Positions 20,699 to 42,100 of a stretch of DNA of 64,000 bases are shown here, in pieces. The stretch is taken from contig NZ_NERV01000002.1 in assembly GCF_003063315.1 (NCBI RefSeq), positions 1,054,001 through 1,118,000 on the forward strand. The letters run 5' to 3'. The position numbers and the translations under genes were made by a program. Every line of letters starts with the position of its first letter. The first letter of the stretch is position 1. This DNA is from Limnohabitans sp. T6-5 (GTDB lineage: Bacteria > Pseudomonadota > Gammaproteobacteria > Burkholderiales > Burkholderiaceae_C). Below the pieces are notes generated by a model that was not told the DNA's origin, did no database searches, and saw only the letters and a program-made list of their open reading frames with translations.

Positions 20699-22807
20699 TC
20701 AAGGCTGAAACTCCCGCAACACCACCGACAAAGCCCGGCGCACATAACGCCCGAGCAAAGACTCGGCTTGCGCTGACACGCTCAGGTGCCCGCGCTGCAC
20801 CGGCAGGTGGGCAGGCAAGCGTGCCGCATCGGCCTCATCCAGCGCCAGCACCACGCGGTAGACCGCCTGCTCGGGAAACCACTTGCCGCCTTGTTCTCGC
20901 GCCAGCACATGGCCGCCCATGGGCGCGGTCAACTGGCCATCGGGCAACTGACGGGTGGCGTCGGCGTCGATCAAGGTGATGGTCAGCGCAACAGGGTGGC
21001 TCAGGCCGGGCGCCCAAAAATGCGCCTTGTTGCCCGGCTGCAAGCGCTTGACCTGCTCTTCCTCCAGCCAGGTTTCGACTTTCCAGGGCTCATCGGCGAT
21101 CAACACGCCGATTTGCTCATGACGCGCCAGCCATTGGCCCACCGCCAGATCCGGTTGCGTCCAGCGGAACACGCCTGCAAAGGAGGCCACCGGGGCATAG
21201 GGCGCCATCTGGTCTTGCAGCCTGCGTGCATCGGCTTGTGACATCTGAAACTGCTCACGCGCCAGCTTCAGGGGCTGGCTGGAGGCATAGGCCAAACTGG
21301 TCGTGGCCGCTTGCCAGCTCAGGCGGGCACTTTTGGCCTCGGCCACATCGGATTGCGCCAACAATTCCGGCTCGCTCATGCGGGCCAGCAGCTGGCCTTT
21401 GGCCACCCGGGCGCCGTCGGCCAGCGGCAATGCCTGCAGCTGCGCTGGGCCGGGCGCATAAACAGGCCACGATTGCCCGGGCCGCAGCATGGCATGCGCG
21501 GTGATCAAAGTGGGCAGGGGCAGCGCCATGAGCACGCCCAGGGCCAGCAGCGCCGCGCCGCTCCACAGACTGCGCCGACGCTGGCGAATGACCGCTGCAC
21601 GCTGCACCCAGGCCAGGATTTCAGAGCGGATCGGGCTGAAGATGAACCAGTAAATCTCGATGGCAAACAGCAGCACCCCCAGCAGCTTGGTGAACAGGTG
21701 ATACACCATCAAGGCGATGCCCAGGAAAAGCACCAGTCGGTAAACCCACACGGCAAACGCAAAGGCCACCAAGCCCCACTGCCGAAGTGGCGTCATGCGC
21801 TCGGGCTGCGCCTCGCCCAGCTGGAACAACCACTCACGCAACTGCCAGCGCGCCAGCGCAAAACTGCGCGCATGCAAATTGGGCAGGTTCAGCACATCCA
21901 TGGCGATGAAATAACCATCAAAACGCATGAAAGGGCTGGCATTGATGGCCAGCGTGGCCACCCAACTGAGCGTGGCCACAAAAAACGCACTGGAGCGCAA
22001 ACCGCCTTCGGGCAACAAAGCCCAGGCCAGCGTCGCCCAGCAGGCAATCACCAGCTCGGTGACGATGCCCGCCGCCGCAATCTGCACACGGGCACGCCGT
22101 CCGGGCAAACGCCAGGCCTCGTTGGTATCGGTGTAGGCCATGGGCCACATCACCAAAAACGCCACCCCCATGCGCGGCACACGGCAGCCTTGGCGTTTGG
22201 CGGCAAAGGCGTGCCCCAGTTCATGCAAGACCTTGACCACCGACAAGGCCACGCCATATGACAGCAAGCCTTGCCAGGTGAAGGTGTCCACCAAGGTGGC
22301 TTTGAACAAGCTCCACTGCTGCATCACCTGGTACACACCCACCAAAAGCACCAGCCCTGTCAGGGCCATGAAGCGACGGGAGAAAAACACCTCGACCGCT
22401 CCCACCCAACGGCTCAGCCAGGCATCGGGCTTGAGCAAGGGAATGCGAAAAAACAGATAGTGGTGAATCAGCCAAGTCCAGACGCTTTGGCGGGTACGGG
22501 CCACTTTTTGGGCCATCTCGGCGGCGGCTTTGGCATCCGTGGGCAGCAGCAGTTCATGCTGGGACAAGAAGGTCATCACCTCTTCGATGTGCTTGGCCTC
22601 GATTTGCAAAGGCGTGTCCCGCGCCACCGCGTGCACGATGGCTTCGGTGTGCCCCAAGCTCCAGCGCGACAAAACCTCCCAGGTCAGCCAATCGATCTGA
22701 AAGTATTGTTGGCGCACCGGGTCATGCAGCACCCAGCTGGGCTGCCCCTGCGAGCCCGTGGGGCCTGCAAACACATCCAGCTCTTCGCGCAGCAAAGGCC
22801 AGGCCAT
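20699..22807 (-). CDS. Membrane M50 (site-2 type) zinc metallopeptidase with HlyD-like C-terminal region
   Basis: A 702-residue integral membrane protein. Residues 1-100 are a soluble N-terminal domain that includes a winged-helix-like stretch (QYFQIDWLTWEVLSRWSLGHTEAI) seen in PqqD-like leader-binding modules. The membrane core has HELGH (195-199), two zinc histidines and the catalytic Glu196, and the second motif SPFMRFDGYF with Asp297 as third ligand. More helices follow to about residue 430, then a periplasmic tail with lipoyl-like (LADGARVAKGQLLARMSEPELL) and barrel segments as in HlyD/membrane-fusion proteins. The gene starts one base after the HlyD-like gene stop, so the two are coupled. 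Known relatives are annotated as peptide zinc metalloproteases in peptide export. Here it may process or help export the giant protein encoded two genes upstream. Confidence 0.85.
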   Translation of the reverse strand: MAWPLLREELDVFAGPTGSQGQPSWVLHDPVRQQYFQIDWLTWEVLSRWSLGHTEAIVHAVARDTPLQIEAKHIEEVMTFLSQHELLLPTDAKAAAEMAQKVARTRQSVWTWLIHHYLFFRIPLLKPDAWLSRWVGAVEVFFSRRFMALTGLVLLVGVYQVMQQWSLFKATLVDTFTWQGLLSYGVALSVVKVLHELGHAFAAKRQGCRVPRMGVAFLVMWPMAYTDTNEAWRLPGRRARVQIAAAGIVTELVIACWATLAWALLPEGGLRSSAFFVATLSWVATLAINASPFMRFDGYFIAMDVLNLPNLHARSFALARWQLREWLFQLGEAQPERMTPLRQWGLVAFAFAVWVYRLVLFLGIALMVYHLFTKLLGVLLFAIEIYWFIFSPIRSEILAWVQRAAVIRQRRRSLWSGAALLALGVLMALPLPTLITAHAMLRPGQSWPVYAPGPAQLQALPLADGARVAKGQLLARMSEPELLAQSDVAEAKSARLSWQAATTSLAYASSQPLKLAREQFQMSQADARRLQDQMAPYAPVASFAGVFRWTQPDLAVGQWLARHEQIGVLIADEPWKVETWLEEEQVKRLQPGNKAHFWAPGLSHPVALTITLIDADATRQLPDGQLTAPMGGHVLAREQGGKWFPEQAVYRVVLALDEADAARLPAHLPVQRGHLSVSAQAESLLGRYVRRALSVVLREFQP

Positions 22808-22808
22808 G

Positions 22809-24179
22809 TCAGAGCCCCAGACTGGTGCGGATCAAGGCCAGCGGCTTGCGCAGCAGCCAATAACCCAGAAACGTCCATTCGCCACTGACGCGGGCCGTGC
22901 CCTTTTGCCCCACGCTGTGGGGCGTGGGCGCCAGCAGCCGCGCACGCAAGCGGTAAGCGTAGGTGGCATCGGGCCGCAGCACGGCCTCGTGCGACAGGTA
23001 CGTCAGCTCGGCATGCACGGGCGACAAAGGGCTCGATTGCAAAAACAAGGTGAGCGTCGAGCCCACGGGCAGCTGGACCACATCGTCGAGCGGCAGCCAG
23101 GCCTGAACCTCGATGTCGCTGGGGCGGGCGATGCGCAATATCTGCTCGCCCACCGCCACCGGCTTACCCACCCAGGTCAGGGGGTCGTCCAGCAAGACCA
23201 TGCCCGCACCGCTGGCGCTGACCTGGGTGCGCTGCAATTGGGACTTGAGGAACTCAAACTCGCTGCGTCGCTCCTGAATGGCACCGGCCACAGCCGCCAA
23301 TTCGGCCTTGTACTTGGCGTCATCCAGGGCCAGTTGATGGGTCTGGCGAAATTGCGCCTGCGCCGTCTCCAGCGTCTGCTGGGCCACCGCCACACGGCTT
23401 TGCAGCAAGGCCTCGTCAAACTCGAACAACAGCTGACCGCTGCGCACGGTCTGGTTGGGCTGCACATGGAAACGGGCAATCACCCCCTCAATCGGGGCGC
23501 GCACCACCACAGGCTGGGCAGGCACCAGCTCGCCGGGGGCCAGCACCGTCATGCGCACCGGCAAAAACACCAAACCCAGCAGCAGCGCCATCAGCCAGAC
23601 CCCCGGCCGCTTGTACCAGGGCTTTTGCCCGGCCAAGTGCCATTGGCGGCGCCAGTTGCGCAAACGCTGGCCCAGCGCAGGCCTTTGCTGCCGGGCCAGT
23701 GCATGCCAGGCGTGCTGCCAGACCTGCAGCCAGGCCATGAGCTTGGCCTGGTCGGCTTCAGAAAACTGCACATCGCGGGCCAGCAACAGACGCGCACCGG
23801 GCGCCACATCCAGCGGCAAACTGAGGGCGTTTTGTGGCCACCACTCGGCCCAGCTTGGCTGCTGCTCCACTGGCAAGTCGTGCGCACTCAAGGCCTGCAC
23901 ACCCAACTGCAATGCCCATGGCTGGGCCAGCAAGGCCTTGACCCAATCGAGGTAGGGCGTGTGCTGCTCCACCTGGCTGACGCCCGACAAGGCGCGCACG
24001 CCCTCGTCGCCCAGCCACAACACCGCTTGCCGGTAGGGCAGCAAGGCGTGGGTGGTGTTGCACAGCAAAAACGCCAGTTCGTCGAGTGACTGCGCCTGCC
24101 GGGCCTGTTGGCCCAGATCGAAAAGGGTCAACAAGGGCGAATTGTCCAAAGCCGCTGGCGGCCCGCTTGATTGAGTCAT
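22809..24179 (-). CDS. HlyD family periplasmic adaptor with N-terminal GAF-like domain
   Basis: A 456-residue inner-membrane adaptor. Unusually long cytoplasmic part: residues about 15-160 look like a degenerate GAF-type domain (SLDELAFLLCNTTHALLPYRQAVLWL, later LSLPLDVAPGARLLLARD, FSEADQAKLMAWLQVW). Then a basic stretch, one transmembrane helix (192-208), the lipoyl-like half-motif (VRAPIEGVIARFHVQPNQTVRSGQLLFEFD, 227-256), a coiled coil (about 258-320), the returning lipoyl half and a barrel. Such adaptors link inner-membrane exporters to a TolC-type outer channel. It starts 7 bases after the stop of the giant gene and is coupled to the M50 gene. No ABC ATPase is seen nearby. Confidence 0.85.
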   Translation of the reverse strand: MTQSSGPPAALDNSPLLTLFDLGQQARQAQSLDELAFLLCNTTHALLPYRQAVLWLGDEGVRALSGVSQVEQHTPYLDWVKALLAQPWALQLGVQALSAHDLPVEQQPSWAEWWPQNALSLPLDVAPGARLLLARDVQFSEADQAKLMAWLQVWQHAWHALARQQRPALGQRLRNWRRQWHLAGQKPWYKRPGVWLMALLLGLVFLPVRMTVLAPGELVPAQPVVVRAPIEGVIARFHVQPNQTVRSGQLLFEFDEALLQSRVAVAQQTLETAQAQFRQTHQLALDDAKYKAELAAVAGAIQERRSEFEFLKSQLQRTQVSASGAGMVLLDDPLTWVGKPVAVGEQILRIARPSDIEVQAWLPLDDVVQLPVGSTLTLFLQSSPLSPVHAELTYLSHEAVLRPDATYAYRLRARLLAPTPHSVGQKGTARVSGEWTFLGYWLLRKPLALIRTSLGL

Positions 24180-24186
24180 AAGGTAT

Positions 24187-27100
24187 TCAATTCATCCATT
24201 CGCCACGCAGTTTGCCAGAAGCCATCAGCTGGCGCGATTGCGCCAATTTGTCTGACAGGCCCACACGGCCTGTGCGCTGGGCCTCCGCACCGATCTTGAT
24301 GCGCAACACCGTCACCGCCGCCTGGCCGTGCTGGTCCAGCGCCATCAGGCGCAAGACCACTTCGCCTTCCAGAACATCTGGCGGGTTGAGTGTGATGACG
24401 CCGGTCTTTTGGTTGACAGTCACCCAATGTGGTGCGGCCTCACCGTCGAGCATGTCCACCGAAAGTCGCACCACGGCCTTGGGGTCATGGTGCACAAAGG
24501 TGTCCGGTGGCAGGGTGAAAACCAGGCTTCGCCCCGCTTCGATCTGCAAATCGGGCAAGCCGCGCAGCACGCCAAACACCCCGTCCAGGGGGCTCAAGCG
24601 CACAGGCAAGCCCTCGGACTGCGTGGTTGTGGTTTCGCTCAGCAACTGCAGGAACTGGCGCAAGCGAATGGCCTCACGCTCCAGGTTTTGCTGCCGCTGG
24701 ACCCAATCTTCAGGCACGGCAGGCGCTGTCGCTCGCGTCCAGGACGAAGGTGTGCCCTCCACCCAGGATGGCATCGGGGCACGATGCGCCATCGCTTTGG
24801 CTGCGGGCACCACCTCATCCAGAGGCATGAATGCGGCAGGGCCACCCGCGCCTTTGTTCAACGGGGCCTCCTGCTGCGTCAGCGGCTCCAGCCACGCCGT
24901 CACGCCCGTGAGGGGCGCGGGTTCAGATATTGGCGGTTCTGGCGCTGGCACTGGCGCTGGCGCTGGCGCTGGCACTGGCACTGGCACTGGCACTGGCACT
25001 GGCACTGGCACTGGCACTGGCACTGGCACTGGCACTGGCTCAGGCACTGGCTCAGGCACTGGCTCAGGCACAGTAACGGGCACCGACTTGTCCAGCTGCA
25101 CAGTGTCGGCCAAAGCGGTGGCGTCACCCACCTGGTTGCTGACCGACAGACTCAGGCTCACGGGCCCATCCGACAAGACACGCAAATCCACGCCCTGCAG
25201 CGCCCAACGGCCCTGGCTGTCCACGCTGGTCACCGCAGTGACGGTGTTCACGCCGTCGCTGAACACCACCGTCAAGGGCTGGCCCGCTTCCACGCCCGTG
25301 GTGCTGCCCGACAAGTTCACCTGCCCGGCTTCACCCGCCGTGATCACCCCATCGGCGGCCACGGGGAAAGACTCCAGGCGCACTTGCGGTGCTTCACGCA
25401 CGGCCGCCACAAAGCCTGGGTCGAGCACGACGCCATCCGCGGCGCCATCGTCATCGCCACGTCCACCATCGCGGATGAACAGGCGCACCAAATCGATGTG
25501 CCCGTCGCTGTTGCTGTCCAGGAATTTGGCGCCGGTGCCGCTGGCCTCGTCCCAGGTGAAGGCCCACACGCCTTGGCTGCCCACTTTGAAATAGGTGTTG
25601 TAGAGGCCCTCGGCGACTTTCACATCGACTTCATGCACCTGCCCCACATAGGCGCTGAGCACCTGTGCAGACAAGGCATCAACGGCAGCCTCATCCACCT
25701 CGCCCAGACGCACGACCTGAGGGTAGTGACGGAACGAAATCACGTCGGTGGCTGCAAACACATCGGCACTGCCCAGCTGGCTGCCCGACAAGGCCTGCGC
25801 CCGCTCGGCTGCGGTGACCGCGCGGCTGGTGACGCTGTCGATTTGCACCTCCACCCGCAATTGACCGCCGGGGTTGGTGGCAGGATTGCTCAACAAGTCC
25901 TCCATGCCAACGTTGCCCTGACCGGTGGTGTCGATGGCCATGATCTGGCCAGCCGAAGTCTGGAACGTGACCACATCGCGTTGATCGGCATCATCGATGC
26001 CATCGCCGTTGATGTCGCCAAAGTTCTTTTCGTTGGAAAAGCGCACGCCGTCGCCATCGAGCGACTCCAGGTCCGCACCGTTTTGCGGCGAGACGATGCG
26101 CATCTGCAAGGTCGGACTGCCTGTGGACACATTGCCCGCCATGTCCTGGAACTGGTACTGCAAATTCCAGCTGCCTTCGGGCAGGGCCGACAGCGGCATC
26201 AGCGTCAGCGTGGCCACATGGAACAAGCTGGGCACCGCCCGGCCATCGACCAGCAAGACCACATTGGCTGTGCCGTCCGGCAAGGCGTCCACTTTCAGGC
26301 GCACCAGCCCGCTGGGCGAGGGGTTGCCGCCTTCGGGCACCGGCGCATTGAGCGGCGCTGTCTGAGCGGGCAATTCGCTGATCCATCGGTAATCCTGCAC
26401 CCGAGCCTCGCTGGTGCGCAGCGGATCGGCACCGTTGTCGCGCACCACCTGCAAGACCAGGCTGCGGGCAGGACCCGCCAACAGTTGCGCGTCCGGCCAC
26501 TGCAGCAAGGTGCCATCCACATGCGCGGTCAAGTCAGTCCAGCCTGCGGCCACCCAGTTGGCATCCGTGGGCATGACTTGCAGGCCATCGAGTCGGCCAT
26601 AGACGCGGTCAAAGGTGCCCAGCGGCGCGTTCAAGGTTCCACTGATGAACTGGTTGTTGTTGGCCGTGATGAAATCGCTGGCCGAAGGACCGGTGTCGCT
26701 CGACAGCTGAACACCCATCACGCGGGCCAGGCGGTCGGTGACGGTAAAGACCAGACCTTGCAAGGCAGACAAACGGGCCATATCGCGGCCATCGTCGGCC
26801 AGGGCCGCCAACTCGGACACCACCACCGCCAGCTGTCCAGCCGACATGCCCGTGGTGTCCACACCCATGCGCTGCAGGTCGGCCACGCTCAGCGAAGCCG
26901 CTTGACCCGCCACCACCGCCATCAGGCGTTGCACCGTATCGGCCAGAACCTCGATCTGCGCCACCGTCGACACATCGGCCGCTTGCATGTTGGCGATGCT
27001 GTCGTTCAGCAAGGCCAGCGCAGGCGCGGTCAAGGCCGCAGCTGTGGTGGCGCCGATGGCGGCGTAATCGGCCGCTGTGGGCTGGCTGTCGGGCGTGGCA

Positions 27101-30100
27101 TCTACCAGCGTGCCGTTGGCTTCGGCCAGGATGCGCGCACACGCATCGACCACGGCCTGCACTTTGGCGGCCGTGTCCAGCACTGCGCCTGCGGCGGCCG
27201 CACTGCTCAAAGCCGACTGGATGGCCGCCAGATTGCGGGTGTCCACACCGGTGATCTGCGCATATGCAAAGTCGGCCACAGCGGGCGCGGCCGCCGTGGT
27301 GTCTTGCGTGTAACGGGTGAGCACGGCCAGCGCCGCGCTTTGGCTTGCTTGCTGCAGCCAGCTGCGCACATCGGCCATGGACTGCAGATCAGACGGGCTG
27401 ACCGCTGGCGACTTGAGCAATTCGGCCAGCGCCACCAGCGATGTGCCTTGCACACCGGTCATGCCCAAGGCTTGCATCTCGGCCACGGTCAAGGGCGAAG
27501 CAGGGTCTTGCCCATCGGCCAGGCTCATGAGCTTGTCCACGGTGGTGGCCAAGGATTCCAGCTCATCCACCGAGTCGACCAGATAGAAAGGCTGATCGGC
27601 CAGCACCGCATCCATGAGGCGCAGACCCTCGGGCGACAAGGCAGCCGCCTTCACCGCACCGACGCGGGCAAAGTCTGCCGCCTGCGGTTGGGACTGTGGC
27701 GTGGCATCGGCCGCAGCGCCATTGGCTTCGGCCAGGATGCCGGCATACGCATCGACCAGCGCCTGCACAGCAGGCAAGCTGCTGATCGTGTCACCCGTGA
27801 TGGCGCTGCTGACCAGTGCGCTGTTGAGGGCAAACACATGGACACTGTCCACGCCTTGCACATCGGCACGCTGCCAATCTGCCAGGGTGGGGGCTGCGCC
27901 GCTGTTGCTGCTGGCATAGCGCTGCAAGACCTGCAACAAATCGCCACGCACCGTGTTGACCAGGTTCTGCAAAGCCGCCAGGTCGGCCACACCAGCGCCG
28001 TTGTCGGCTGTCGCGGCCACCGCCGCCAAAATCGCGCTCAGGTTGTACGGCGTGACCCCGCTCAGACCCAGCGCTTGCAAATCGGCTTCGCTTAAGGCCA
28101 CGCTGGGCGTGCCACCGGCAGCCGTCAGCAGCAAGGCCTGAACCGTTTGGGCCAGCGCTTCGATCTCGGCCACGCTGTCGATGGCAGACGCCGTCTTGTC
28201 GGCCATCACCTGGTTGAGCAACTGCTGGCCAAAAGAGCCATCAGGCAGCGCAGCCGCTGCTGTGGCCCCGATGGCCGCATAGGTTGCGGCCTGCGGATCG
28301 GCCGCCGTGCTGTCGGCGGCCGCACCATTGGCTTCGGCCAGGATGAGCGCATAGGCGTCCACCATGGCCTGGATTTGGGCCACTGTGCGGACCTGCTCGC
28401 CCTGCACCACGCTGGTGGCCAGCACACTGTTGATGGCCTCCACGTTGTTCGTGTTCACGCCGCTGACACCGGCCACGAGGTAATCGGCCAGACGCGGCAA
28501 TGGCGCAGCCGTGTCGTCAGCCGCTTGCGCAATGACTGCCAAAGCCGCCGCAATGGCCGCCTGGGCCGCCTGGCTGCTGCGGATCACCTGGCTGACGCTT
28601 TGCTGCAAATCGTTCAGGCTGCGCACGCCACGGCCATCATCAGGCCCTGCGGCAATGCTGGCCAGCACAGCGGCCAAATTGGCTGCGTCCACACCCAAGA
28701 TGCCTAGCGCGGCAAAGTCATCTGCGCTCAAGGCGGGGCTGGCCGCCAGGCCTGCCGCCGTGTGCATCAGGCCCTCCACCGTCTGGGCCAGGGCGTCGAT
28801 CTTGCTGACCTGATCGACCGCTGTGGGCTGCGCATTGGCGATCACATCGAGCAGCAATTGCTGAGCCACCGAGCCGTCTGCCAGCGAGGCGGCGGCAGTG
28901 GCACCGATGGCCGCAAAGGTGGCTGCTGTCGGGTTCACGGCACTGGCATCGGGTGCGCCGCCATTGGCTTCGACCAGCACCAACTGGTAGGCATCGAGCA
29001 CGGCCTGCAAGGCTGCAGGCGTGACAGTCGAGATGGCACCGGTTTTTAGTGCATCGAGCAGCGCCAGGCGATTGGCATCGGTCACGCCGGTCAGGCCCGC
29101 GTCCACCAAATCGTCCATGGTGGGTTTGCCCGACTGGGTATCGACCACGGCTTGCAACACACCGATGGCCTTTGCTTGCTTGGATGCCGAAGTCACCACG
29201 TTTTGCAAGCGGGCCAGCGTGTTGATCGCATCCCCGGTATCGGGCGTGCTGACCAAGGCAGCCAGCACTGCGTTCAGATTTTGAGCCGTGACGCCCGTGA
29301 CCCCCAGCAAGGCGAAATCGGCCGGTGTCAGCGTCTGTGCAGGCGTCAAGCCAGCGGCCGTCTCCAGCAGCGCCGAGGTGATGCTGGCCAGCGCATCGAT
29401 CTGCGCCACGGTGTGCACCGCTGGCGTCGTTTGTGCGCCGATGACATCGTTGAGCAAGGCCAAAGCGTTTTGCCCCAAGGCCGTGCTTTGCGCCGCCACA
29501 CCCAGGTCTACGCCGATGCGCTCGAAGTTGGCTGCCGTGGGGTCGCTCACGGTCAGGTCGTTGGCGCTGCCATTGGCTTCTGACTGGATGCGGTTGTACG
29601 CATCCACCATGGCCTGCAAGGCCTGCACCGTGATGCCGCCGCTGAACGACTGTGTGGCCAGCGCCTGATTGAGGAATGCCCTTGCGTCGGCATTCACAGC
29701 GCTCACACCCAGCAAGGTGTAGTCGGCCAGGCTTGGCACGGCGGCGTTGGCGGGGTCGTTGGCATAGGCCTGCAAGCGGGCTTGCGCATCCACTGCGGCT
29801 TGCTGATCACGCACGGTGGTCAACACCAGTGTTTGCAGCTGCGCCAGCGTCTGAATCTGGCTGCCGTCATTGGCGGTGTTGGCGATGGCGCTCAAGACCT
29901 GCGCCAGATTGACGCTGTCCACGCCAGAAATTCCCAAGGCCAGGAAGTCTGCCGGGCTCAGGGCCTGGTTGGCAGGCAATGCGCTGGCTTGGCTGGCAGC
30001 CACCACCATGAAGCGCTCGGCCAGGCTGGCCAGCGCATCGATCTTGGCCACGCTGTCCAGCATGGCCGGGTTGGCGGAAGCGATCAGATCGTTGAACAAA

Positions 30101-33100
30101 GCCAGCGAGGCCGAGCCAGGCCGCAAAGCAGCCGCCTGAGCAGCACCGATCAAGGCGAAATCTGCCGCCACAGGCACCACGGCAGGCGTGGCATCCAGCG
30201 CCTGGGACAACACGGCCTGGACCGCACGGGCCAGCGCGTTCACTTCGCCTGAGGTGTCCACGGCCGAGGTGGTCTGGCTGGCCACCACGTCTTGCAACAA
30301 AGCCATGCCGCTGGCGTTGCCACGCAAGAGGCCCAAATCGACCCCCATCGCTTGGTAGTCAGCAGCGCCCGGATTGACAGCGCTGTCGGCGTCTCCTGCT
30401 GCGCCATTGGCTTCCGCCAGGATGCGCGTGCAGGCATCCACCATGGCTTGCAAGGCCCCCAAGGTGCTCACACCCGAGCCATCATCGGCAGACGCAGCCA
30501 GGGCCGACTGCACGGCAGACAAATTGCCTGCCGTCACACCTGTAATGCCCAAAGTCTGCAATTGCGCCATCGTTGCCACGCCTTGGCCTGCGGCACTCGC
30601 CACCACCGCCTGCACAGCATCGGCCAGCGCCTGCAGCTTGGCCACACTGTCCACATCGGCTGCGGTTTTGCCGTCAATCACTTCACCCAGCAAGTCCAGC
30701 TTCAAGGCGCTGTCCATGCCATTGACGCCCAGCTCCGCATATTGCGCTGACGTTGGGGGCGTGCTGTTGCTGGCCTGGCCATCTGCGCTTTGCAAGACAG
30801 CGGCATAAGCATCCACGATCACCTGAACGTCTGCAGCGCTGTCGGCTTGCACGCCGGTGATGTCCCGATCGGCCAGCACACTGTTGACCATGGCCGCGCT
30901 GGGCTGAGCTGAGCCCCCCACACCGGCCACACCGGCCAGCGTGTACACATTCAAATCAGCCGACGCCGTCAGGTCAGCCTGCGCCGAGCTGCCCAGCACG
31001 GCCGCTGCGGCCTGCTGCGCTGCTGCAGCCGCTGCACCCGAAGCGGCGTTGGCGGCAGCCACGCTGGCAGGTTCGGTTTCGTTGGCGGCAGTGGCGGCGG
31101 CCTGGGCTGCTGTGGCTGCAGCTGTTGCGGCTGTGGCTTGGGCTGCGGCATCAGTGGCTGCGGCCTGAGCTGCGGTTTGTTTGGCTTCGATGTCCGCCAA
31201 CTCTGCTGGCGTTGCTGGACTGCTCAGTGCGGCGACAGCGTTGTTCAAAGCTGTCTTGGTCGTTATTGCCGTTGCAGCTGCCGTTGTGGCGGCAGTGGCC
31301 GCATTGGCGGAAGCTGTTGCAAGGTCTGCCACCTTGGCGTCGGTTGCTGTTTCGCTGGCTGTGGCCGAAGCGGTGGCGTCGGTGCCCGCTGTGCTTGCAG
31401 CGGTGGCGGCAGCGTTGGCAGTGGCCACACTGGCAGGCACGACTTCGTTGGCGGCTGTGGCTGCTTCCTGGGCTGCAGTCGCAGCGGCTGTTGCAGCTTT
31501 TGCTTTCGCTGCGGCATCTGCTGAAGCTGTCAGCGCTGCGGCTTGCTTGGCTTCAATATCGCTCAATTGAGCTGGTGTTGCGGGATCGCTCAATGCGGAA
31601 ACGGCGTTGTCCAAAGCCGTCTTGGCCGCTGTCGCTGCTGCGGCAGCTGTTGTAGCAGCTGTTGCGGCATTGGCGGCGACTGTGGCCAGGTCCGCGACTT
31701 TGGCGTCGGTTGCGGTTTCGCTGGCCGTGGCCGATGTTGTGGCGGCTGTGCTCGCTGCAATTGCCACAGTGGCTGCAGCGTTGGCAGTTGCCACGCTGGC
31801 AGGCACTGTTTCGTTAGCGGCTGCAGCTGCGGCTTGGGCTGCATTTGCAACGGCTGTCGCTGCTGAGGCTTTAGCTGCGGCATCAGCTGCTGCAACTTGC
31901 GCTGCAATTTGCGCAGCTTCAACGGTAGTCAGTTCGGCGGATGTTGCGGGGTTGCTCAGCGCGGCAACGGCACCGTCCAGTGCGGTCTTGGCTGCTGTTG
32001 CGGTGGCGGCGGCTGTTGTCGCAGCTGTTGCGGCATTGGCTGCGGCTGCAGCCAGATCAGCCACTTTGGCGTCTGTCGCAGTTTCGCTGGCGGCTGCCGA
32101 TGTGGTGGCGTCGGTGCCTGCTGCGCTTGCCGCTGTGGCGGCAGCGTTGGCGTCTGCAACGCTGGCTGGTGCGACTTCATTCGCAGCCGTGGCGGCAGCT
32201 TGCGCTGCTGTCGCTACAGATGTTGCGGCGGCTGCTTTGGCAGCGGCATCAGCGGCGGCAGTGAGCGCTGCTGCTTGCTTCGCTTCAACATCGGTCAATT
32301 GCGCAGGCGTTGCGGGATCGCTTAATGCGGCAACGGCGCTGTCCAGCGCAGTCTTGGCCGCTGTCACTGCTGCTGCGGCTGTTGTGGCGGCAGTTGCAGC
32401 ATTGGCGGCTGCTGCGGCCAAGCTGGCCACTTTGGCGTCGGTTGCAGTTTCGCTGGCGGCTGCCGATGTGGTGGCGTCGGTGCCTGCTGCGCTTGCCGCT
32501 GTGGCTGCGGCGTTGGCGTCTGCAACGCTGGCTGGTTCGACTTCATTCGCGACTGTGGCGGCAGCTTGCGCTGCTGTCGCTGCAGCTGTTGCGGCGGCTG
32601 CTTTGGCAGCAGCATCCGTTGCGGCAGTCAGTGCTGCTGCTTGCTTCGCTTCAACGTCGGTCAATTGCGCAGGCGTTGCGGGATCGCTCAATGCGGCAAC
32701 TGCGCTGTCCAACGCGGTCTTGGCCGCTGTTGCGGTTGCAGCGGCCGCACTGGCGGCGGTCGCGGCATTGGCGGCTGCTGCGGCCAAGCTGGCCACTTTG
32801 GCGTCGGTTGCAGTTTCGCTGGCGGCTGCCGATGTAGTGGCGTCGGTGCTCGCTGAGCTTGCAGCTGCGGCGGCAGCGTTGGCAATGGCTACGCTGGCAG
32901 GTTCAGATTCACCGGCGGCCGTGGCTGCAGCTTGCGCTGCTGTCGCTGCAGCTGTTGCGGCGGCTGCTTTGGCAGCAGCATCAGCGGCGGCAGTGAGCGC
33001 TGCTGCTTGCTTCGCTTCAACGTCGGTCAATTGCGCAGGCGTTGCGGGATCGCTCAATGCGGCAACGGCGCTGTCCAGCACAGTCTTGGCCGCTGTCACT

Positions 33101-36100
33101 GCTGCTGCGGCTGTTGTGGCGGCAGTTGCAGCATTGGCGGCTGCTGCGGCCAAGCTGGCCACTTTGGCGTCCGTCGCGGTTTCGCTGGCGGCTGCCGATG
33201 TGGTGGCGTCGGTGCTCGATGCGCTTGCTTCTGTAGCAGCAGTGTTGGCAGCAGCAACGCTGGCAGGTTCGCCTTCACCGGCAGCCGTTGCTGCCGACTG
33301 TGCCGCTAGAGCAGCCGCAGTCGCTGCGGCAGCTTTGACAGCTGCATCAGCGGCGGCTGTCAGTGCTACGGCTTGCTTCGCTTCAACGTCTGCCAGTTCA
33401 GCAGGCGTTGCCGGATCGCTCAGAGCGGCAACGGCGTTGTTGAGCGCAGTCTTGGCCGCTGTAGCTGCCGTTGCGGCTGCTGTCGCGGCAATCGCGGCAT
33501 TGGCGGCTGCTATGGCCAAGCTCGCCACTTTGGCATCCGTCGCGGTTTCGCTGGCTGTGGCAGATACGGTGGCTGCAGTAACTGCGGCGCTTGCAGCTAT
33601 GGCTGCAGCGTTGGCTGTTACCACGCTGGATGGCGTTGTTTCACCAGCCTCTGTGGCGGCAGCTTGCGCGGCTATTGCGGCAGCTGCTGCGGCTGCAGCT
33701 TTAGCAGAAGCATCAGCAGCGGCAGCTTGCGCTGCGGCTTGCTTGGCTTCGATGTCAGTCAGTTCAGTTGGCGTTGCGGGATCGCTCATCGCTGCAACGG
33801 CGCTGTCCAGCGCTGTCTTGGCCGCTGTTGCCATTGCAGCAGCCGTTGTCGCGGCAGTCGCGGCATTGGCGGCGACTGTGGCCAGGTCAGAAACTTTGGC
33901 GTCTGTCGCTGTTTCGCTGGCCGTGGCCGATGCACTGGCGTCAGTACTCGCTGCGCTTGCAACTGTTGCAGCGGCGTTGGCAGTGGCTACGCTGGATGGA
34001 ACTGTTTCGTTAGCGGCTGCAGCTGCGGCTTGGGCTGCTGTCGCGGCAGCTGTTGCTGCAGCTGCATTGGCAGCGGCATCGGCGGCGGCAGCGAGCGCTG
34101 CTGCCTGCTTGGCTTCAACGTCTGCTAGTTCAGCGGGCGTTGCCGGATCGCTCAGAGCCGAGACGGCGTTGTCCAAAGCCGTTTTTGCAGCAGTCGCTAC
34201 CACTTCCGCAGCTGTCGCGGCGGTCGCGGCATTTGCGGCTGCTGTGGCCAAGCTGGCCACTTTGGCGTCGGTTGCCGTTTCGCTGGCGGTAGCTGATGCG
34301 GTGGCGTCGGTGCCCGCTGTGCTTGCAGCTGTGGCGGCGGCGTTGGCAGTGGCTGCGCTGGCAGGTTCAGATTCACCAGCTGCTGTGGCGGCAGCTTGTG
34401 CGGCTGTCGCAGCAGCTGTGGCTGCTGAGGCTTTGGCGGCTGCATCAGCGGCGGCAGTCAGTGCTGCGGCCTGCTTGGTTTCAACGTCTGCCAGTTCAGC
34501 AGGCGTTGCCGGATCGCTCATCGCTGCAACGGCGCTGTCCAGCGCTGTCTTAGCCGCTGCTGCCGTTGCGGCAGCCGCACTGGCGGCAGTCGCGGCATTG
34601 GTGGCGGCGGTGGCAAGGGCGGCCACTTTGGCGTCAGTCGCGGTTTCGCTGGCGGTAGCTGATGCAGTGGCGTCGGTGCCAGCTGCGCTTGCAGCTGCGA
34701 CAGCAGTGTTGGCAGCAGCAACGCTGGCAGGTTCACCTTCACCGGCAGCCGTTGCTGCCGACTGTGCCGCTAGAGCAGCCGCAGTCGCTGCGGCAGCTTT
34801 GACAGCTGCATCAGCGGCGGCTGTCAGTGCTACGACTTGCTTCGCTTCAACGTCAGCCAGTTCAGCAGGCGTTGCCGGATCGCTCAGGGCGGCAACGGCG
34901 CTTTCCAGAGCGGCCTTCGCAGCTGTCGCTGCTGCGGCAGCCGTTGTGGCGGCAGTTGCGGCATTGGCGGCTGCTATGGCCAAGCTGGCTACTTTGGCGT
35001 CTGTCGCCGTTTCGCTGGCAGCAGCCGAAGCTGTGGCGTCGGTGCCCGCTGTGCTTGCCGCGGCAGCAGCGGCGTTGGCAGTGGCCACGCTGGCAGGTTC
35101 GGCTTCACCGGCTGCTGTTGCAACAGCTTGCGCGGCTATTGCAGCCGCTGTTGCAGCTGCAGCTTTGGTGGCGGCATCAGCGGCTGCAGCTTGCGCTGCG
35201 GCTTGCTTGGCTTCGATGTCAGTCAGTTCAGCTGGCGTTGCGGGATCGGTCATCGCTGCAACGGCGCTGTCCAGCGCTGTCTTGGCCGCTGTTGCCGTTG
35301 CAGCAGCCGCACTGGCCACAGTCGCGGCATTGGCGGCGACTGTGGCCAGGTCAGAAACTTTGGCGTCTGTCGCTGTTTCGCTGGCCGTGGCCGATGCACT
35401 GGCGTCAGTACTCGCTGCGCTTGCAACTGTTGCAGCGGCGTTGGCAGTGGCTACGCTGGATGGAACTGTTTCGTTAGCGGCTGCAGCTGCGGCTTGGGCT
35501 GCTGTCGCGGCAGCTGTTGCTGCGGCTGCTTTGGCAGCGGCATCGGCGGCGGCAGCGATCGCTGCTGCCTGCTTGGCTTCAACGTCTGCTAGTTCAGCGG
35601 GCGTTGCCGGATCGCTCAGAGCCGAGACGGCGTTGTCCAAGGCTGTCTTGGCAGCTGTCGCTGCTGCTGCAGCTGTTGTGGCGGCAGTTGCGGCATTGGC
35701 GGCGACTGTGGCCAGGTCCGCGACTTTGGCGTCGGTTGCGGTTTCGCTGGCCGTGGCCGATGCACTGGCGTCAGTACTCGCTGCGCTTGCAGCTGTGGCA
35801 GCGGCGTTGGCAATTGCCACGCTGGCAGGCACTGTTTCGTTAGCGGCTGCAGCTGCGGCTTGGGCTGCATTTGCAGCGGCTGTCGCTGCTGCAGCTTTAT
35901 CTGCGGCATCAGATGCTGCAACTTGCGCTGCAATTTGCGCAGCTTCAACGGCAGCCAGTTCGGCGGATGTTGCGGGGTTGCTCAGCGCGGCAACGGCACC
36001 GTCCAGTGCGGTCTTGGCTGCTGTTGCGGTGGCGGCGGCTGTTGTAGCGGCTGTTGCGGCATTGGCTGCGGCTGCAGCCAGATCAGCCACTTTGGCGTCT

Positions 36101-39100
36101 GTCGCAGTTTCGCTGGCACTGGCTGAAGTGCTTGCCGACGTACCTGCGGCGCTTGCAGCTGTGGCTGCGGCGTTGGCAGTTGCCACGCTGGCAGGCACGG
36201 TTTCATTGGCGGCTATGGCGGCATCTTGTGCTGCAGTCGCGGCGGCAGTCGCTGCGGCAGCTTTGACAGCTGCATCAGCGGCGGCTGTCAATGCTACGGC
36301 TTGCTTGGCTTCAACGTCTGCCAATTGAGCTGGCGTTGCCGGATCGCTCATCGCAGCAACGGCGCTGTCCAAAGCGGCCTTCGCAGCTGTCGCAGCTGCA
36401 GCAGCCGTTGTCGCTGCAGTTGCTGCATTGGCGGCAGCTGTGGCCAAGCTGGCGACTTTGGCGTCGGTTGCGGTTTCGCTGGCAGCAGCCGAAGCTGTGG
36501 CGTCGGTGCCCGCTGTGCTTGCAGCTGCGGCGTTGGCAGTGGCCACGCTGGAAGGTTCGGCTTCGTTAGCGGCTGTGGCTGCGGCTTGGGCTGCAGTCGC
36601 TGCGGCAGTCGCTGCGCCAGCTTTGACAGCTGCATCAACTGCAGCAGTCAGTGCGGCGGCCTGTTTGGCTTCGACGTCTGCCAGTTCAGCTGGCGTTGCC
36701 GGATCGCTCATCGCTGCAATGGCGCTGTCCAGCGCTGTCTTGGCCGCTGTTGCTGTTGCAGCAGCCGTTGTTGCGGCAGTTGCGGCATCGGCAGCGACTG
36801 TGGCCAGGTCAGAAACTTTGGCGTCTGTCGCTGTTTCGCTAGCCGTGGCCGATGCACTGGCGTCAGTACTCGCTGCGCTTGCAGCTGTGGCAGCGACGTT
36901 GGCAATTACCACGCTGGCAGGCACTGATTCGTTAGCGGCTGCAGCAGCGGCTTGGGCTGCTGTCGCGGCAGCTATTGCTGCGGCTGCATTGGCAGCCGCA
37001 TCAGCAGCGGCAGTCAGTGCGGCGGCCTGTTTGGCTTCGACGTCTGCCAGTTCAGCTGGCGTTGCCGGATCGCTCATCGCTGCAACGGCGCTGTCCAGCG
37101 CTGTCTTGGCCGCTGTTGCTGTTGCAGCAGCCGTACTCGCGGCAGTCGCGGCACTGGCTGCTGCCGTGGCCAAGCTGGCCACTTTGGCATCCGTCGCGGT
37201 TTCGCTGGCTGTGGCAGATGTGGTGGCATCAGCACTCGCTGCACTTGCAGTTGTGGCAGCGGCGTTGGCAGTGGCCACGCTAGCAGGTTCGGCTTCACCG
37301 GCTGCTGCTGCAACAGCTTGCGCGGCTGTTGCAGCAGCTGTTGCAGCTGCAGCTTTGTTGGCGGCATCAGCAGCGGCAGCTTGCGCTGCGGCTTGTTTGG
37401 TTTCAACGTCTGTCAATTGCGCAGGCGTTGCGGGATCGCTCAATGCGGCAACGGCGCTGTCCAACGCGGTCTTGGCCGCTGTTGCGGTTGCAGCGGCTGC
37501 ACTGGCGGCGGTCGCGGCATTGGCGGCGACTGTGGCCAGGTCCGCGACTTTGACGTCTGTCGCAGTTTCGCTGGCGGCTGCCGATGTGGTGGCATCGGTG
37601 CCTGCTGCGCTTGCCGCTGCGGCTGCTGCGTTGGCAATGGCTACGCTGGCAGGTTCAGATTCACCGGCGGCCGTGGCTGCTGCTTGCGCTGCTGTCGCTG
37701 CAGATGTCGCCGCTGCAGCTTTGGCAGCGGCATCAGCGGCTGCAGCTTGAGCTGCGGCCTGCTTGGCTTCGACTTCTGCTAATTGAGCTGGCGTTGCGGG
37801 ATCGCTCAAGTCTGCAACTGCGCTGTCCAACGCGGTCTTGGCCGCTGCTGCGGTTGCAGCGGCTGCACTGGCGGCGGTCGCGGCATTGGCGGCTGCTGCG
37901 GCCAAGCTGGCCACTTTGGCGTCGGTTGCAGTTTCGCTGGCAGTGGCCGATGCGGTGGCGTCGGTGCCCGCTGCACTTGCAGCGGCGGCTGCGGCGTTGG
38001 CGGCGGCCACGGTGTCTGGCGGTGTTTCACCAGCCGCTGTGGCGGCAGCTTGTGCGGCTGTCGCCGCGTCTGTTGCTGCTTGTGCTTTCGCTGCGGCGTC
38101 GGTGGCGGCAGCTTGCGCTGCGGCTTGCTTGGTTTCGATATCAGCCAGTTCAGCTGGCGTTGCGGGATCACTCAGGGCTGCAACGGCGCTGTCCAGAGCC
38201 GTCTTGGCCGCAGTCGCTATTGCAGCGGCTGCAGTCGCGGCGCTTGCAGCATTGGCGGCAGCGGTGGCCAGGTCAGCCACTTTGGCGTCTGTCGCAGTTT
38301 CGCTGGCGGCTGCCGATGTGGTGGCGTCGGTGCCCGCTGCACTTGCAGCGGCGGCTGCGGCGTTGGCGGCGGCCACGGTGTCTGGCGGTGTTTCACCAGC
38401 CGCTGTGGCGGCAGCTTGTGCGGCTGTCGCCGCGTCTGTTGCGGCTTGTGCTTTCGCTGCGGCGTCGGTGGCGGCAGCTTGCGCTGCGGCTTGCTTGGTT
38501 TCGATGTCAGCCAGTTCAGCTGACGTTGCAGGATCACTCAGGGCTGCAACTGCGCTGTCCAACGCGGTCTTGGCCGCTGTTGCGGTTGCAGCGGCTGCAC
38601 TGGCGGCGGTCGCGGCACTGGCGGCTGCTGCGGCCAAGCTGGCCACTTTGGCGTCCGTCGCGGTTTCGCTGGCGGTGGCAGATGTGGTGGCATCGGTGCC
38701 TGCTGCACTTGCAGCGGCGGCTGCGGCGTTGGCGACGGCCACGCTGTCTGGCGGAGTTTCACCAGCCGCTGTGGCGGCAGCTTGTGCGGCTGTCGCCGCG
38801 TCTGTTGCTGCTTGTGCTTTCGCTGCGGCCTCGGTGGCGGCAGCTTGCGCTGCGGCTTGCTTGGTTTCGATGTCAGCCAGTTCAGCTGGCGTTGCAGGAT
38901 CACTCAGGGCTGCAACTGCGCTGTCCAACGCGGTCTTGGCCGCTGTTGCGGTTGCAGCGGCTGCACTGGCGGCGCTTGCAGCATTGGCAGCAGCGGTGGC
39001 CAGGTCAGCCACTTTGGCGTCGGTTGCAGTTTCGCTGGCTGTAGCCGATGCGGTGGCGTCGGTGCTCGATGCGCTTGCTGCTGTAGCAGCAGTGTTGGCA

Positions 39101-42100
39101 GCAGCAACGCTGGCAGGTTCGCCTTCACCGGCAGCCGTGGCTGCCAACTGCGCCGCTAGAGCAGCTGCTGTCGCCGCTGCGGCTTGTGCGGCTGCATCTG
39201 CGGCGGCAGTCAGTGCAGCGGCTTGCTTGGCTTCAACTTCGATCAATTGCGCTGGAGTGGCGGGACTGCTCAGTGCAGCAACGGCATTGTCCAGCGCAGT
39301 CTTGGCCGCTGTTGCGGTTGCAGCGGCTGCACTGGCAGCAGTTGCAGCATTGGCAGCTGCCGTGGCCAAGCTGGCCACTTTCGCATCCGTCGCAGTTTCG
39401 CTGGCGGTGGCCGCAGCGGTGGCGTCGGTGCCCGCTGCGCTTGCCGCTGTGGCGGCAGCATTGGCAGCAGCAACGCTGGATGGAGCTGTTTCACCAGCCG
39501 CTGTGGCTGCTGCCTGAGCTGCGGTCGCAGTCGCTATCGCCGCTGCAGCTTTGACAGCGGCATCAGCGGCGGCAGTCAGTGCGGCGGCTTGCTTGGCTTC
39601 GACGTCTGCCAGTTCAGCTGGCGTTGCCGGATCGCTGAGTCCAGCGACGGCGTTGTCCAACGCAGTCTTGGCTGCTATGGCCGTTGCGGCAGCTGTTGTG
39701 GCGGCACTTGCGGCATTGGCGGCGACTGTGGCCAGGTCCGCGACTTTGGCGTCGGTCGCGGTTTCGCTGGCCGTGGCCGCTGCACTGGCGTCCGTGCCCG
39801 CTGCGTTTGCAGTTGTGGCGGCAGCGTTGGCTGTTGCCACGCTGGCAGGCACTGTTTCACCAGCTGCTGTGGCGGCAGCTTGGGCTGCATTTGCAGCAGC
39901 GGTCGCCGCTTGGGCGGCAGCGCTTGCGTCGACTGCCGCAGCTTGCGCTGCGGCTTGTTTGACTTCGACGTCAGTCAGTTCAGCGGGCGTTGCCGGACTG
40001 CTCATGGCTGCTACGGCGCCGTCCAAAGCTGTCTTGGCCGCTGTTGCTGCGGCAGCAGCTGTTGTGGCAGCAGTTGCAGCATTGGTTGCTGCCGTGGCCA
40101 AGCTGGCTACTTTGGCGTCGGTTGCGGTTTCGCTGGCTGTGGCCGATGCGGTGGCGTCGGTGCCTGCTGCGCTTGCAGCTGTGGCGGCGGCGTTGGCGGC
40201 GGCCACGCTGGATGGAACTGTTTCACCCGCCGCTGTGGCGGCAGCTTGGGCTGCATTTGCAGCAACAGTCGCCGCTGCAGCTTTGGCAGCCGCATCAGCA
40301 GCGGCAGCTTTCGCTGCGGCCTGCTTGGCTTCAACGTCTGTCAATTGATCTGGCGTTGCAGGATCGCTCAGGGCTGCAACGGCGTTGTCCAAAGCGGCCT
40401 TCGCAGCTGTCGCTGCTGCTGCAGCTGTTGTTGCGGCCGTCGCGGCATAGGTGGCGGCGGTGGCCAGGCTGGCCACTTTGGCGTCGGTTGCCGTTTCGCT
40501 GGCGGTGGCCGATGTTGTGGCGTCGGTGCCTGCTGCGCTGGCAGCTGTGGCAGCGGCGTTGGCTGTTGCCACGCTGGCTGGAACTGTTTCCCCAGCCGCT
40601 GTGGCGGCAGCTTGCGCCGCTGTTGCAGCAGCTGTCGCTGCTGTAGCTTTAGTAGCCGCATCAGCGGCGGCAGTCAGTGCTGCAGCTTGCTTGGCTTCGA
40701 CGTCTGCAATTTCAGCTGGCGTTGCCGGATCACTCAGGGCGGCAACGGCGTTGTCCAACGCAGTCTTGGCCGCTGTTGCGTTTGCGGCAGCCGTTGTGGC
40801 GGCAGTCGCGGCACTGGCAGCAATCGTGGCCAAGTTGGCCACTTTGGTATCCGTCGCAGTTTCGCTGGCCGTGGCCGATGTGGTGGCGTCGGTGCCTGCG
40901 GCGCTTGCAGCGGTGGCTGCAGCGTTGGCTGTGGCCACGCTGGCAGGTTCAGATTCACCGGCAGCCGTGGCTGCTTCTTGCGCCGCTGTTGCAGCCGCTG
41001 TCGCCGCTGCAGCTTTGGCAGCCGCATCAGCAGCGGCAGTCAGTGCTGCGGCCTGCTTGGCTTCAACGTCTGTCAATTGATCTGGCGTTGCAGGATCGCT
41101 CATGGCTGCTACGGCGCTGTCCAGCGCAGTCTTGGCCGCTGTTGCTGCGGCAGCAGCTGTTGTTGCAGTCGTCGCGGCATTGGCAGCTGCCGTGGCCAAG
41201 CTGGCTACTTTGGCGTCGGTCGCGGTTTCGCTGGCCGTGGCCGCTGCACTGGCGTCCGTGCCCGCTGCGTTTGCAGCCGTGGCGGCAGCGTTGGCTGTTG
41301 CCACGCTGGCAGGCACTGTTTCACCCGCCGCTGTGGCGGCAGCTTGGGCTGCATTTGCAGCAGCGGTCGCCGCTTGGGCGGCAGCGCTTGCGTCGACTGC
41401 CGCAGCTTGCGCTGCGGCTTGTTTGACTTCGATGTCAGTCAGTTCAGCGGGCGTTGCCGGACTGCTCATGGCTGCTACGGCGCTGTCCAGCGCAGTCTTG
41501 GCCGCTGTTGCTGCGGCAGCAGCTGTTGTTGCGGCCGTCGCGGCATTGGCAGCTGCCGTGGCCAAGCTGGCCAATTGGCTTCCTGTTGCGGCTTCACTGG
41601 CAGCAGCCGATGACGCCGCAGCTGTACTCGCTGCGCTTGCAGCTGCTGCGGCGGCGTTGGCAATGGCAACGCTGGCTGGATCGGCTTCATTCGCGGCTGT
41701 GGCTGCCGCCTGAGCTGCGGTCGCAGCCGCTGTCGCCGCTGAGGCTTTGGTGGCTGCATCAGCGGCGGCAGCTTGCGCTGCGGTCTGCTTGGCTTGCAGA
41801 TCTGCCAGTTCTGCTGTCGATGCCGGGTCACTCAATGCTGCGACGGCGCTCTCCAAAGCGTTCTTGGCCGATGTTGCCGTTGCTGCAGCTGTTGTGGCGG
41901 CGCTTGCGGCATTGGCGGCTGCTGTGGCCAAGCTGGCTACTTTGGCATCGGTCGCACTTTCGCTGGCGTTGGCCGAAGCTGTTGCGTCGGTGCCTGCTGC
42001 GTTAGAAGCGGCGGCAGCGGCGTTGGCAGTGGCCACGCTGGCTGGTTCGGCTTCATTCGCGGCTGTGGCTGCGGCTTGGGCTGCTGTCGCTGCGGCAGTG

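Follow-up and report, generated by a model that had tools for sequence, protein, structure and literature searches.

The 64,000-nucleotide stretch of the Limnohabitans sp. T6-5 genome considered here (G000:C2:1054001-1118000; hereafter the window) carries the gene of an M50 metallopeptidase with a HlyD-like tail (M50-HlyD), the adjoining gene of a HlyD-like membrane adaptor (HD2), and part of the gene of a giant repeat protein. We propose, at a probability of about 0.6, that a dedicated system secretes and processes giant repeat proteins under the guidance of a leader, and that HD2 and the M50 protein are its inner-membrane half. This reading draws on a set of genes that persists among relatives, on a short N-terminal tag of the giants whose presence is coupled to that of the machine and whose variant follows the machine type, and on the absence of a conserved ATP-binding cassette (ABC) neighbor.

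Gene set and domain architecture of the machine

The initial annotation had described the giant, HlyD-like, and M50 genes as a tight operon, and the coordinates agree: 7 bases (24180-24186) separate the giant gene from the HD2 gene and a single base (22808) separates HD2 from the M50 gene. Because the HlyD-like and M50 pair recurs in relatives, its adjacency is more than chance. A pair, however, is too small a unit. The full giant gene is larger than the window shows, a single open frame at C2:1078187-1130908 encoding 17,573 residues, and 74 bases upstream of it ends the gene of HD1, a 363-aa periplasmic adaptor with a signal-peptide-like start. The HD1 gene overlaps by 4 bases an OEP/TolC-family gene (528 aa) whose product contains the sequence LLGAC, which we take to be a lipobox. 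These two genes, both to the right of the window, score over the cut-offs of PF13437/PF16576 and PF02321. The operon thus reads OEP, HD1, giant, HD2, M50, with four machine genes (for a TolC-like protein, a periplasmic adaptor, a membrane adaptor, and the M50-HlyD protein) and a substrate. Of the ABC and TolC genes for which the initial annotation had suggested looking on this side, a TolC-like gene and a second adaptor were there and an ABC gene was not. The five operon genes, checked by themselves, include no resistance-nodulation-division (RND), major facilitator superfamily (MFS), or ABC transporter, and the absence of a dedicated transporter sets the operon apart from tripartite efflux pumps of these three kinds.

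The M50 protein matches PF02163 Peptidase_M50 at 40.8 bits (cut-off 27.2) and PF13437 HlyD_3 at 32.6 bits (cut-off 22.2), and both the latter match and the predicted fold agree with the HlyD-like tail ascribed to it from the start. A confident structure model predicts three domains: a PqqD-like RRE, the leader-binding domain of ribosomally synthesized and post-translationally modified peptide (RiPP) systems, at about residues 2-89; a site-2 protease core at about 128-400; and a HlyD-type adaptor at about 430-686. The first of these, a domain of leader-binding type, had been missing from the initial description. In the model the N-terminal domain shows the three strands followed by three helices of the RRE fold, and the core shows the site-2 protease fold with the zinc motif HELGH as an HExxH in a membrane helix and with NASPFMRFDG as the NxxPxxxxDG motif of the M50 family. 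HExxH is present in all 47 relatives listed.

A search of 300 genomes of the order with the M50 protein returned 32 nearly full-length matches with scores of at least 389.7 bits, below which the scores drop to about 181. We refer to the high-scoring group that includes the window's own protein as type A and to the lower-scoring second group as type B. In a tree of 127 M50 proteins the 111 type A sequences form one clade (support 0.885) apart from the 16 of type B, which were not recovered as monophyletic because the root falls among them. Pfam detected no RRE in 62 type A M50 proteins. Alignment of the M50 N terminus with PqqD by hhalign gave 16% for type A, 95.6% for type B, and 89.4% for both jointly, against 0.1-0.3% for three controls; values obtained with a poorly trimmed set of PqqD sequences (0.3% for type A, 42% for type B) were discarded.

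HD2 consists of an N-terminal domain, a hydrophobic segment from about residue 192, and a HlyD barrel-sandwich and barrel (HlyD_3, 65.8 bits, over cut-off). Besides the window's own, 31 type A and 16 type B neighborhoods were read. Of the 31 type A neighborhoods, 26 contained OEP and 27 contained HD1, all five without OEP being cut by contig ends. Gene order and strand varied among the loci, with the giant first, third, or on the opposite strand. A further set of 80 named loci, which reach at most 10 kb per side and are often cut inside the giant, contained HD2 in 74 cases, OEP in 20, and HD1 in 19; the two type A sets share two contigs (L035/L130 and L037/L152), and L135 and L136 are near-identical. 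In type B loci the HD2 counterpart and M50 genes are followed by the gene of a short SecA-like ATPase (15 of 16 loci) and by adaptor and giant genes. GAF domains were found in the N-terminal half of three of the four type B HD2 counterparts tested, and Pfam found none in 51 type A HD2 proteins. Frames in which HD2 and M50 appear fused (L041, L063) are probably overlong, with HD2 in another frame, as in L138.

The N-terminal tag and its coupling to the machine

The giant begins MKKKNSP…REPARMLALEQRLMFDGAALDTAL…, continues with DUF4347 and autotransporter-type beta repeats, and also matches Ca_tandemer and Ig-like repeats. Giant and machine are tied together not by the Ig-like repeats, by which the initial annotation had characterized the giants, but by a short N-terminal tag, LE[PQ]RxMFDGA, which matches the NCBIfam LEPR-XLL domain (NF012209, LEPR-8K). 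In the giant studied here the tag is LALEQRLMFDGAA, residues 42-54, encoded outside the window. Its membership in LEPR-XLL is borderline, because LEPR-8K (cut-off 17) gives 19.9 bits, in frame at C2:1130726-1130788, when the whole genome is searched and 13.1 bits on the N-terminal fragment of the protein. The tag region is too little hydrophobic for a signal peptide: the best 19-residue window exceeded 1.6 in none of 47 tagged giants, and the same test was passed by 31 of 47 HD1 and 28 of 36 OEP proteins.

Among the 300 genomes of the order, 36 had a LEPR-8K match over cut-off in a frame of 1000 aa or longer, a limit chosen after the data were seen; all 36 belong to the 53 genomes with an M50-HlyD match, and the other 247 contributed none. 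Without this limit, 54 genomes were positive: 41 with an M50-HlyD match and 13 without one, and in these 13 no matching frame was longer than 651 aa. The coupling was also examined in 398 genomes of the phylum, a sample largely separate from the first, with a model of the type A tag (A5) that spans 40 columns and was built on 35 of 40 tag windows selected after the data were seen. It matched in 67 of 74 type A genomes as compared with one of 321 others, the single match coming from a genome that is 57% complete. The 14 genomes whose M50 matches were all of the weaker kind gave no match. Two choices made after the fact bear on these counts: the line between type A and weaker matches was set at about 400 bits, with G573, present as fragments, counted as weaker, and the window's own genome (G000), G093, and G015 were dropped from the table, two of them having contributed rows to A5. 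Tag-bearing proteins range from about 900 to 17,573 aa, and tagged open frames reach 17,576 aa.

The form of the tag differs between the two machine types. With a search pattern that allowed D or S, type A tags continue as FD[GA] in all 41 loci with a tag (40 proteins), and type B tags continue as xS[AG]D in all seven loci with a tag, with xSAD in place of FDGA; two further type B giants (L091, L092) have looser S-type forms. This tag dialect changes together with the machine type, as expected if the machine reads the tag. Several LEPR matches, up to 12 at an E value of 1 or less, occur in each of the type B genomes G029, G254, G284, G100, and G055, with tagged frames of up to 14,056 aa in G029, suggesting that one machine may serve many substrates.

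DUF4347 is likewise associated with M50-HlyD (37 of 53 genomes versus 11 of 247) but was rejected as what joins the giant to its machine, since the eight DUF4347 neighborhoods examined from genomes without M50 start directly with DUF4347 and carry no tag (G038, G070, and G159 stand outside this count). DUF4347 proteins, counted by Pfam because our own N-terminal model (GN) includes the tag, were tagged in 19 of 19 cases beside a type A machine and in 0 of 8 in genomes without a machine. By eye, DUF4347 (L003:14700-15908, minus strand, and relatives) has an SHG ... YGCD pair like that of clan CD (caspase-like) peptidases, and it may be a self-processing domain just after the tag.

The genomes behind the coupling all belong to one phylum and some are close kin, as would be the case if an old operon had simply been kept by shared descent without joint function. 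We give this very little credence: the set is retained although its genes differ in order and orientation from locus to locus, giants located elsewhere in the genome are still tagged, and the tag variant follows the machine type.

Proposed mechanism, energy source, and alternatives

We infer a sequence of steps in which a giant that starts with a LEPR-type tag and no classical signal peptide would be bound through that tag, in the cytosol, by the N-terminal RRE of the M50-HlyD protein, much as RRE domains bind RiPP leader peptides. Recognition of the tag is supported by its coupling to the machine and by the predicted RRE fold. The site-2 protease core may then cut the leader off, or cut near it, and so commit or release the substrate; we propose cleavage because the active site is intact and daptides offer a precedent. 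The HlyD-type tail of the M50 protein, HD2, HD1, and the TolC-like protein would together make up a conduit through which the chain reaches the surface, a proposal prompted by the conservation of the partner genes.

Energy would come from a source other than an ABC protein, in type B from the machine's own short SecA-like ATPase. A gene for this ATPase is present in 15 of 16 type B loci, the exception being L067, and is absent from the available stretches of the 111 type A loci (109 distinct). The L068 protein scores over the Pfam cut-offs of the SecA_DEAD, P-loop, and preprotein-binding domains. It reaches 515.3 bits with the best SecA2 model, against a cut-off of 1085, and both it and its L073 counterpart fall under every SecA and SecA2 cut-off, their matches to the SecA model missing its C-terminal part. 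Type B thus resembles accessory Sec in having a short SecA paralog that matches SecA and SecA2 models, and differs in that its SecA proteins lie under the SecA2 cut-offs and have M50-HlyD, adaptors, and OEP as partners in place of the SecY2/Asp proteins of accessory Sec; no SecA paralog was seen with type A. Since type A lacks a SecA-like ATPase of its own, the housekeeping SecA/SecYEG is the presumed source there, and the type A genomes searched that have no type B machine contain one strong SecA match each, all others being at 25 bits or less. At least two short SecA paralogs occur in genomes such as G029, G016, G148, and G242. Wherever such a paralog and a type B M50 gene were both located they lie close together, a hint that several machines may operate side by side in a single cell.

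Several observations weigh against the leader-guided reading, and we consider them here together with the alternatives to which some of them lend support. LEPR-8K is a weak, 24-residue model that also scores over cut-off in one of 14 control genomes, and seven of the 77 type A genomes show no tag. The Fisher value for the tag-machine coupling (p = 2e-66 in the 398-genome sample) is overstated owing to kinship among the genomes, which leaves the pattern itself unaffected. The type A N-terminal domain resembles PqqD weakly by sequence alone (the 16% above), the match of the M50 protein to daptide_HExxH (NF041824) reaches 158.8 bits, under the cut-off of 300, and no dedicated energy source was found for type A. 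No tagged giant was found in the genomes of machine loci L155 and L171. The presence of three LssB-type type I ABC genes over cut-off elsewhere in the Limnohabitans genome, a 709-aa ABC open reading frame (ORF) directly 3′ of the M50 gene in L138, and a conserved motif at the C terminus of the giants, which could be the real export signal in place of the tag, complete these points.

The last group bears on an alternative in which the giant leaves by ordinary type I secretion, with an ABC protein supplied in trans and the M50 protein as an accessory. Type I secretion is the route of the giant adhesin LapA, and the operon resembles such systems in its HlyD-type adaptors, TolC/OEP outer-membrane protein, and very large repeat cargo. 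Type I systems are reported to export the giant adhesin SiiE and cargoes of more than 8000 aa (PMC8277102), which, given the LssB-type genes, makes help in trans possible. The C-terminal motif, approximately GRxSLSEQLRxA in type A giants and represented here by GRVGLSDKL beginning 27 residues before the end, near the stop at 24187, was found by a strict pattern in 44 of 90 presumed giant ends, some of which are wrong frames and not giants; many others are looser. Among 1461 ORFs of 300-899 aa there were 11 matches, all already within the 90. We nevertheless consider type I export in trans improbable. The initial annotation saw no ABC ATPase with the pair, and the nearest PF00005 matches (150 of 173 candidates scored), at C2:1030065 on the left and C2:1193923 on the right, are indeed about 44 kb and 60 kb distant from the operon; a complete ABC-HlyD-TolC set just outside the window was looked for and is not there. 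Searches with 12 ABC ORFs from the same genome, based on a motif that recovers 12 of 14 known ABC places, placed an ABC-like ORF close to the machine in 1 of 31 and 9 of 80 type A loci and in 0 of 16 type B loci, half of these ten loci having an ORF of at least 500 aa. A complete ABC set next door was thus dismissed for the window and its relatives alike. Of 23 type A carriers searched, all of them free of type B machines, 10 have an LssB-type ABC gene that scores over the cut-off (a 24th genome, without the machine, was also under the cut-off, and HlyB- and PrtD-type ABC proteins are outside the count), so that such a gene in trans was discarded as a general requirement. Type B brings a SecA-like protein instead, and an RRE-site-2-protease-adaptor fusion, together with an N-terminal tag, stands in the place of the ABC protein.

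The chief rival holds that the giant crosses the envelope in some other way and that the M50-HlyD-TolC set is a sorting or anchoring machine, which removes the leader and then either attaches the protein to the envelope or releases it there, by a logic comparable to that of exosortase or the LapD/LapG release switch. The coupling of tag and machine would be equally strong in that case, the M50 protein is a protease, and both the GAF-bearing half of most type B HD2 counterparts tested, which suggests a regulated step, and a 1006-aa ORF beside the giant at the type A locus L059, GGDEF/EAL-like by eye, would fit. PEP-CTERM/exosortase and LPXTG/sortase are tag and sorting-enzyme pairs of this sort, with a short terminal tag on varied proteins and a co-occurring membrane processing enzyme; here the tag is N-terminal, the enzyme is a site-2 protease with an RRE, and a trans-envelope set of adaptors and channel accompanies it. 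This conserved outer-membrane channel and three adaptor-type proteins or domains would not be needed by a pure protease, and no signal peptide was found near the tag for another route, so we judge a sorting role unlikely, while taking it seriously.

The best NCBIfam match of the M50 protein points to daptides, which have RRE-M50 fusions (MpaP, NF041824) and a conserved motif near the substrate N terminus; M50 proteases, such as EpeP, are known from other RiPP classes. The likeness to MpaP comprises the N-terminal RRE fused to M50 and the motif near the substrate N terminus. Such precedents would also suit a RiPP-like system whose true substrate is a short peptide and for which the giant is a mere neighbor, but we find this very hard to reconcile with a tag on proteins of such length, and a scan of a small number of neighboring genes, a thin test, showed no tailoring enzyme of the RiPP kind. 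The machine further departs from daptide and other RiPP M50 peptidases in its C-terminal HlyD adaptor, partner adaptors, outer-membrane channel, lack of an ABC protein, cargo of thousands of residues, and score under the family cut-off.

Returning to leader-guided secretion, we entertain, tentatively and at somewhat less than even odds, the broader view that it represents an undescribed, Proteobacteria-wide kind of secretion, in which megadalton proteins are treated as oversized RiPP precursors by an RRE-site-2-protease-adaptor platform at the base of a conduit that ends in a TolC-like protein. Its energy would come from a SecA paralog in type B and from the housekeeping SecA in type A, and not from an ABC protein, with LEPR-XLL as the signal in two dialects. 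The system is described nowhere in the open full-text literature searched, a body that excludes bioRxiv and most subscription papers, and no account of a machinery for LEPR-XLL was found there. The NCBIfam model that the giant's N terminus matches names the domain alone, and the term reportedly occurs in a Vibrio genome paper and a Baikal metatranscriptome paper. If correct, the proposal would explain how many of the longest bacterial proteins exit the cell and give the LEPR-XLL domain a function. It would also join RiPP leader recognition and giant-adhesin secretion, two separate fields, and make tag plus RRE-M50-HlyD a simple genomic rule for finding substrates.

Distribution and locus details

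In the phylum sample, type A machines occur in 77 of 398 genomes and M50-HlyD matches of any kind in 91, a few of them weak or partial. The named type A loci, the best 80 of at least 590 relatives, have M50 proteins 38-55% identical to that of the window and span Beta-, Gamma-, and Alphaproteobacteria. Carriers include Pseudomonas songnenensis, Comamonas testosteroni JL40, Duganella, Polynucleobacter, Magnetospirillum, Alteromonas, and, at 55% identity, Limnohabitans sp. T6-20, which has a tagged giant open frame of 16,083 aa. M50-HlyD and giants co-occur, as the initial annotation had wondered: where 6 kb or more of sequence is available upstream of the M50 gene (43 loci), a frame of at least 900 aa lies on the same strand in 39 cases, and in the other four a tagged giant lies on the opposite strand (L156, L157) or elsewhere in the genome (L167, L173). 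Machines without a giant are thus not frequent, as they would be under the objection first raised, yet no tagged giant was found for L155 and L171. Table 1 gives the positions of the features in the window.

Table 1. Features of the operon within the window (window coordinates)
Feature	Position	Strand	Remarks
M50-HlyD gene (RRE-M50-HlyD protein)	20699..22807	-	702 aa, ATG start
HD2 gene (HlyD-like membrane adaptor)	22809..24179	-	456 aa, ATG start
Giant gene, part inside window	24187..64000	-	Stop at 24187; extends to C2:1130908
Ala-rich tandem array within giant	31042..46631	-	42.6 copies of a 366-bp (122-residue) unit

The antisense strand of the Ala-rich array contains long ORFs that are probably spurious. 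A clear shared C terminus was seen in three of the nine type B places examined: in the DUF4347 giants L207, L209, and L211 a hydrophobic segment precedes a terminal S[ML]PAWRxxDPxPVL. This end differs from the type A tail, GRxxLSEQL, and is possibly a membrane anchor or a second sorting signal. Three metagenome-assembled genome records titled Akkermansia or Chitinophaga (L111, L137, L148) carry type A machines that share 48-53% identity with that of the window, as betaproteobacterial machines do, and are probably mislabeled bins. The GGDEF/EAL-like ORF that adjoins the giant at L059 (L059:5826-8846, minus strand) suggests cyclic di-GMP control of the giant there, and a 1010-aa ORF occupies the matching position in L076.

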